From positions 1 to 37,467 of the IMG/VR virus record IMGVR_UViG_3300017949_002507: 37,467 bases of DNA; one strand, given 5' to 3'. Position 1 is the stretch's first letter; each line of letters starts with the position of its first letter. Source of the DNA: a virus. Both the position numbers and the translations under genes were made by a program. Under the pieces are notes generated by a model. It had not been told where the DNA came from. It worked only from the letters and a program-made list of their open reading frames with translations, and made no database searches. Shown piece by piece: positions 36,300 to 36,479 of this stretch.

Positions 36300-36479
36300 G
36301 TTGTGGCTGGTGTGCTTCTACGCCAAATGAGACTGCCGCATATTTGCATCACGACCCCGCATATGCTCAGGGCTGGAGTGTTTCTCCACACGCATCTATC
36401 TTGGTGCTTTACCTGTCTATTCGATAGATCCAACTCTTTAAATGATGGCTGCTTCTAAGCCAACATCCCTGCCACAAAC
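36300..36479 (-). ncRNA. Structured RNA carrying a 23S rRNA GTPase-centre mimic
   Basis: About 180 nt between tRNA-Thr and the terminator, with no open frame. A terminal stem pairs 36471-36477 with 36301-36307 (7 bp, plus one more after a bulge). Inside lie a 4-5-bp stem (36467-36470/36369-36372), the helix 43 hairpin (36458-36467/36444-36450), a 7-bp stem (36423-36429/36394-36400), a 5-bp hairpin (36374-36378/36384-36388), a 6-bp hairpin (36338-36343/36361-36366) and a second UAGAAGCA hairpin (36308-36325). The segment 36435-36468 equals E. coli 23S positions 1055-1088. Pairings were found by eye. It is not an rRNA gene: the flanks are non-ribosomal. Confidence 0.85.
36435..36468 (-). other. 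34-nt identity to 23S rRNA GTPase-associated centre (H43)
   Basis: On the minus strand, 34 consecutive bases match E. coli 23S 1055-1088 as I know it: the GGAUGUUGGC arm, UUAGAAGCA loop (A1067 equivalent at 36456), GCCAUC arm and the AUUUAAAGA junction that folds onto helix 43 with L11. From position 1089 on, the match stops; helix 44 with its GUAAUA loop (A1095) is replaced by an unrelated stem. The CCAUCAUUU form is the proteobacterial rather than the Bacillus (CCACCAUUU) version. Confidence 0.93.

Follow-up and report, generated by a model that had tools for sequence, protein, structure and literature searches.

The window, the whole 37,467-nucleotide stretch of viral DNA analysed here, belongs to a contig that encodes a phage DNA polymerase, a helicase, a UvsX-like recombinase and a ribonucleotide reductase. 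All tRNAs and nearly all genes of this contig lie on the minus strand. There, a promoter, a tRNA-like element, tRNA-Gln, tRNA-Thr, an RNA resembling the GTPase-associated centre (GAC) of 23S rRNA and a terminator follow one another in this order:

36751–36779, minus strand: sigma-70-type promoter, TTGACA-17-TATAAT with TG (12/12), facing the tRNA genes and the GAC RNA
36635–36723, minus strand: tRNA-like element whose variable region is long; ARAGORN misses it, and the tRNA-Sec model matches it below threshold (25.4 bits)
36559–36629, minus strand: tRNA-Gln (CTG), from the tRNA gene call
36482–36553, minus strand: tRNA-Thr (GGT), ending about 5 nt ahead of the GAC RNA
36301–36477, minus strand: complete GAC-like RNA, 177 nt, aligned to 23S numbering 1046–1113 and to relatives
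36468–36477, minus strand: 5′ arm of the H42-like closing stem (23S 1055–1046), from the alignment and H42 covariation in relatives
36435–36468, minus strand: H43 with its junction, matching E. coli 23S 1055–1088 at 34/34 bases, from BLAST and the alignment
36328–36434, minus strand: inserted arm, 107 nt, between 23S ~1089 and 1090, from the alignment and relatives
36309–36327, minus strand: H44-like hairpin TTTGGCGTAGAAGCACACC (23S ~1090–1105), from the alignment and the motif in relatives
36301–36310, minus strand: 3′ arm of the H42-like closing stem (23S 1104–1113), from the alignment and covariation
36271–36290, minus strand: intrinsic terminator AGCAACCTGAGAAGGTTGCT-TTTTTT, 10 nt past the GAC RNA

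The initial annotation of this locus had left the strand of the RNA unstated; the RNA is on the minus strand, co-oriented with the tRNA genes. A plus-strand RNA folds well, but the rRNA sense, the tRNA strand, the promoter and the terminator are all those of the minus strand. On the plus strand, an open reading frame that runs off the end of the window (37262–37465) carries zinc-ribbon-like cysteines and a weak zf-FCS match, and is possibly an HNH homing endonuclease within the tRNA array, placed on the strand opposite to the tRNAs.

The similarity to rRNA that had first been reported is exact: minus-strand bases 36468–36435 agree with positions 1055–1088 of E. coli/Salmonella 23S at 34/34 bases, and BLAST matches them to true 23S records at 100% (E 7e-8), the match being confined to those 34 bases. 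The sequence flanking 36435–36468 is not rRNA, in agreement with the view that the element is no part of an rRNA gene; with its foreign flanks and its 107-nt insertion it is not embedded in contiguous 23S sequence. Its parts run in the order H42 5′ arm, H43, inserted arm, H44 and H42 3′ arm, which in 23S numbering corresponds to 1046–1089, then the insertion, then 1090–1113. The terminal stem proposed earlier (36471–36477 with 36301–36307) is present and continues inward through 1054–1105 and 1055–1104, with a single A–A mismatch at 36470/36308, and the terminator that the RNA was said to possess is found at 36290–36271 of the minus strand. The same annotation had helix 44 replaced by another stem, which proved wrong: H44 is the hairpin TTTGGCGTAGAAGCACACC at 36327–36309, displaced from H43 by the 107-nt insertion, whose closing pairs are 36432–36328, 36431–36329 and 36430–36330. 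Mimicry of the GAC goes beyond the original claim, as H44, H42 and tertiary contacts are also present. Judged from the alignment, the window RNA is a complete GAC, comprising H42, H43 and H44, to which an arm has been added at 23S ~1089/1090. When the window RNA was folded by itself under a nearest-neighbour model, the energy was −56.6 kcal/mol unconstrained versus −40.8 kcal/mol with all GAC pairs imposed; the unconstrained fold does not recover the H44 hairpin, and tertiary contacts lie outside such folding models.

Across 2.9 million viral contigs the exact 34-mer occurs at 11 places, of which ten are not 23S. A loosened H43 pattern returned 79 matches, an H44 pattern more than 119 and its U–A variant 87. 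The H44 pattern also matched 35 times in bacterial and archaeal contigs totalling 257 Gb, a number near or below the estimated chance level; 14 of these have H43 upstream. At least 188 distinct relatives, nearly all with both helices, were found in IMG/VR, GenBank phages and GTDB contigs (14 from GTDB), and this recurrence bears out the assertion that chance does not explain the match. Since the scans matched exact patterns, the true size of the family exceeds the count, and the constancy of the searched letters arises partly by construction. Motif scans also enrich the motif searched for; for this reason H43 was evaluated on loci found through H44, and H44 on loci found through H43. Of 53 loci selected on H43 only, 52 have the H44 motif, the exception (L049) lying at the end of the available sequence; conversely, H43 identity to 23S has a median of 28/34 in 135 relatives found through H44, among the matches listed. 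A strict 58-nt pattern supplied bacterial 23S comparators from five genomes only.

Carriers include phages of enterobacteria (Cronobacter GAP32, Pectobacterium CBB, Serratia BF and several Erwinia pEa_SNUABM phages), Xanthomonas (XacN1, XaC1 and XbC2) and Pseudomonas (pf16, UNO-G1W1, Astolliot and Milchi), together with Aeromonas 4_4572 and Acinetobacter ME3. The Rfam scan of the window did not report the GAC-like element, and 16 related loci gave no match at the gathering threshold; at a lax threshold, in six loci, LSU rRNA models alone matched the GAC site, all below threshold (for instance L035, E 4.5e-6, and L016, E 1e-3). We found no earlier description of a GAC-like phage RNA in Rfam 15 or in the open PubMed Central text. 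Several phage-labelled records, as well as L011 and L015, contain true 23S and were left out of the family; L015, the Paenibacillus phage Pd_22F record, holds a stretch of true 23S rRNA under a phage label that is probably host sequence.

Pairing in 101 dereplicated copies was compared with shuffled pairings. The H42 pairs 1054–1047/1105–1112 are 77–100% paired against 38–73% after shuffling, with changes on both sides; the covariation spans 8–9 pairs, and pairing falls to background level from 1046–1113 outward. At the base of the arm, the first four pairs are 97, 94, 88 and 70% paired (45–64% in shuffled pairings for the first three). Within H43, pair 1058–1080 is G–C in 36, U–A in 32 and A–U in 23 of the 101 copies, and the non-helical pair 1082–1086 is U–A in 70, C–G in 31 and A–U in 19 of 135 among the matches listed.

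The tertiary contacts vary in the same concerted manner. In the 23S GAC, G1071 forms a stacked base triple with G1091–C1100, and C1072 with C1092–G1099 (PMC8614978). Acinetobacter phage ME3 provided the first case seen of U1072 with U1092–A1099. A search for the U–A form of H44, blind to base 1072, then found U1072 in 58 of the 58 loci that have H43, and C1072 accompanies C1092–G1099 in 77/77 C–G-form loci found through H44 alone, leaving no exception to the switch in 135 loci among the matches listed. Phage kinship inflates these switch counts; the switch nevertheless occurs inside one phage group, in which GAP32 (L014) is C-type and L265 and L276, which have about half of the GAP32 arm 7-mers, are U-type. 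G1071 with G1091–C1100 is found in 133/135, positions 1091 and 1100 being fixed by the search motif, and U1060–A1088 in 130/135 (both among the matches listed). Because 1072 and 1092–1099 change as a unit, with three-site switches inside a group and zero exceptions, it is safe to conclude from these comparisons that the RNA folds as a GAC and that selection maintains its tertiary fold.

Other parts of the RNA are far less constrained or are peculiar to the family. The loop U1066-A1067-G1068-A1070 is present in the window and fully intact in just 45 of 135 copies among the matches listed; positions 1067, 1068 and 1070 each vary, with A at 1067 in 97/135 and G in 33/135 of those listed matches, and at 1095, across the 43 loci whose selection did not depend on this base, 40 have A. 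Compared with 23S, the family H44 has a near-constant A1101 and UUU ahead of G1090, family-wide features that suggest a single origin and long independence from rRNA. At least eight relatives (L093, L111, L117, L133, L149, L155, L170 and L175) carry an extra hairpin within H43 between 1077 and 1078, after which the H43 and junction sequence continues.

The arm ranges from 25 to 367 nt among relatives. L006, a near relative, retains the first internal stem of the window arm (AUCUAUC/GAUAGAU in the window, AUCUAC/GUAGAU in L006) with a shorter tip. Two modules recur elsewhere. Type A, CACCCC-N(4-7)-GGTAAGG, is a hairpin close to the 3′ end of the arm with covarying flanking pairs, found in 29 RNAs (L016 3031–3155 and 28 further loci) and common to Pseudomonas, Aeromonas and gut phages; we recognised no known RNA behind it. 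Type B, AGGGGAAGGAC...AGACCCTTAGAG, is found in 16 RNAs (L013, L014, L227 and 13 others) and is typical of GAP32-like jumbo phages. Across the family the arms have no common core, some measure just 25–60 nt, and essentially no sarcin-ricin loop or tRNA T-arm was found within them.

The association with tRNA genes extends beyond the window. Across the at least 188 RNAs, 851 of 852 tRNAs within 3 kb share the strand of the GAC RNA; a tRNA lies in the available flank of 136 of 188, with the nearest on the same strand in 134 at a median distance of 49 nt. The RNA may stand between tRNAs or apart from them, and the annotation around named-phage copies, where read, places it in intergenic sequence or under short hypothetical open reading frames. 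No protein neighbour recurs besides homing endonucleases (21 loci, called from a sequence motif), and it is therefore unlikely that the RNA acts as a leader or has a phage protein as its dedicated partner. Four phages with the RNA (L002, L063, L081 and L087) carry tRNAs with a CTA anticodon, which ARAGORN calls tRNA-Pyl and which suggest amber suppression or recoding, and phage-encoded tmRNA genes occur within two arrays (L032 4045–4349; L059 11050–11373). L209, a Flintibacter muris contig of 195,824 bases from a cultured bacterium, looks like a phage or prophage; on it the GAC RNA lies beside an apparent polynucleotide kinase-ligase gene, with several DNA methyltransferase-like reading frames nearby.

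The GAC-like RNA thus recurs in many large phages within tRNA gene clusters, where its probable role is the capture of a ribosomal protein of the host, L11 for instance. In the mechanism that we propose, the RNA would be made together with the phage tRNAs; its core, which folds into the tertiary structure of the 23S GAC and from whose helix 44 the phage-specific arm grows, would capture uL11, the host protein native to this fold. Ribosomes might then have less uL11 available, or uL11 might serve as a handle for the arm, and during infection uL11-dependent functions such as RelA activation could be damped or factor traffic altered. We regard a trans-acting mimic that captures host uL11 as about evenly balanced between right and wrong. 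Slightly less than even is our confidence in the wider proposal that these RNAs form a viral class, widespread and so far undescribed, in which a functional domain of the ribosome, reproduced as a self-contained tertiary fold, would capture uL11 in trans and control the stringent response and factor traffic.

uL11 is the partner that stabilises the GAC fold (PMC10161774). It would have to be the host protein, since a phage-encoded uL11, considered as a partner, was absent from all 50 phage records searched. bL12-like domains occur in 7 of the 50, too few for a required partner and in agreement with an earlier report of viral bL12 (PMC6375957). Matches above the Pfam cut-off are found in G022, G031, G051, G057 and W05 (UNO-G1W1), all of them carriers of the GAC RNA. 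H42 pairing stops at 1047/1112, before the stretch of H42 that contains the uL10 site in 23S, and stalk proteins are therefore less likely ligands. Several observations count against uL11 capture: the arm exceeds the needs of a simple decoy and differs between phages, at least eight relatives interrupt H43 with the 1077/1078 hairpin, and the computed folding energy favours a structure without H44. Because uL11 is abundant, a sponge would also need high expression.

Phage tRNA arrays are sites of counter-measures to tRNA cleavage, their tRNAs offsetting defences that cleave tRNAs. The position of the GAC RNA in such arrays would suit a bait or antitoxin-like substrate: host defence enzymes or toxins that hit or sense ribosomes at H43/H44 would meet a decoy GAC, and the real ribosomes would be spared. 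Its neighbours, namely HNH genes and, at the L209 locus, the apparent polynucleotide kinase-ligase gene, would suit such a role too, and lineage-specific arms would likewise fit an arms race. An enzyme directed at the loop should, however, fix the loop, yet 1067, 1068 and 1070 vary, and we know of no anti-phage effector that acts on the H43/H44 site. We consider such a bait unlikely, yet a serious rival. The same judgement applies to a scaffold, in which uL11 or the GAC fold would provide no more than an architectural core or a point of docking, and the active element would be the arm, serving ribosome recruitment, tRNA handling or, as in GOLLD and ROOL, oligomer formation: the long arms with at least two conserved modules speak for it, as do GOLLD and ROOL, which share the genomic niche and of which GOLLD was pulled down with ribosomes (PMC12286853), but arms that lack a common core and can be very short leave the GAC as the sole shared part.

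The variable loop also bears on another of the original suggestions. U1066-A1067-G1068-A1070 is tied to thiostrepton and to recognition by TsnR (PMC9508554, PMC8614978), and a thiopeptide sponge, or a factor-site mimic for thiostrepton, EF-G or EF-Tu, would need both A1067 and A1095. Retention of A1095 accords with such a role; the relaxed thiostrepton loop disfavours it and makes it highly improbable. Of the initial interpretation, the stand-alone phage RNA mimicking the GAC is supported, and the absorption of a thiopeptide is disfavoured. Only a shade more credible is a cis-regulatory leader or a stabiliser of the tRNA transcript that uses the GAC fold incidentally, which we judge very unlikely: the window RNA does lie at the 3′ end of the predicted tRNA transcript, next to the terminator, but no downstream gene is conserved and elsewhere the RNA lies between tRNAs or away from them. 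A recombination scar, an assembly contaminant or a chance 23S match we effectively discount. A few database matches are indeed true 23S, as noted above, but at least 188 copies share a derived H44 (A1101, with UUU preceding G1090) and carry an insertion that 23S lacks, and covariation and operon placement argue the same way. The check proposed at the outset, whether relatives exist with covarying flanks, speaks against a scar: the RNA is conserved in unrelated phages, and its flanks covary.

An independent viral RNA that mimics a functional centre of the ribosome did not turn up in Rfam or the open literature searched. If uL11 capture is correct, phages would hold an RNA-based control of the host stringent response and of translation-factor traffic. 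In the relatives, nature has also run many sequence experiments on the small rRNA tertiary fold that has been studied most, among them 1072·(1092–1099) swaps, as well as insertions that might not be tolerated within the ribosome. The questions raised, namely whether the RNA binds uL11, blunts RelA activation or baits a defence, concern cultured phages among others (GAP32, CBB, pf16, XacN1 and ME3).

Several known RNAs invite comparison. The stable RNAs C and D of T4 similarly come last in a phage tRNA cluster and have no known function; considered as relatives, they were rejected on reading their sequences, which have no H43/H44 motif, RNA C having a tRNA-like T arm. GOLLD and ROOL, too, are phage RNAs with a defined structure, no known function and a place close to tRNA islands (PMC12286853), but they measure ~600–800 nt against about 90–450 nt for the GAC RNA, which alone contains an rRNA domain, and their Rfam models matched neither the window nor 16 related loci. 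The L1 and L10 leaders mimic the rRNA site of a ribosomal protein, as proposed here; they act in cis in ribosomal-protein mRNAs, whereas the GAC RNA is separate, sits in tRNA operons and has no ribosomal-protein gene downstream (no conserved neighbour; no uL11 in 50 records). OLE RNA, another ornate RNA, is proposed to sequester the ribosomal protein RpsU (PMC12286853), but it is bacterial, unrelated in sequence and directed at a different protein. The closest counterpart is the 23S GAC itself (H42–H44, E. coli 1051–1108), with which the phage RNA shares the H43 and H44 sequences, the H42 closing stem, 1082–1086, U1060–A1088 and the 1071/1072 triples. Unlike the 23S GAC, the phage RNA lies outside rRNA, bears a 25–367-nt arm at ~1089/1090, has A1101 and UUUG before 1091 in its H44, ends H42 after ~9 pairs, relaxes the thiostrepton loop and sometimes adds a hairpin to H43.
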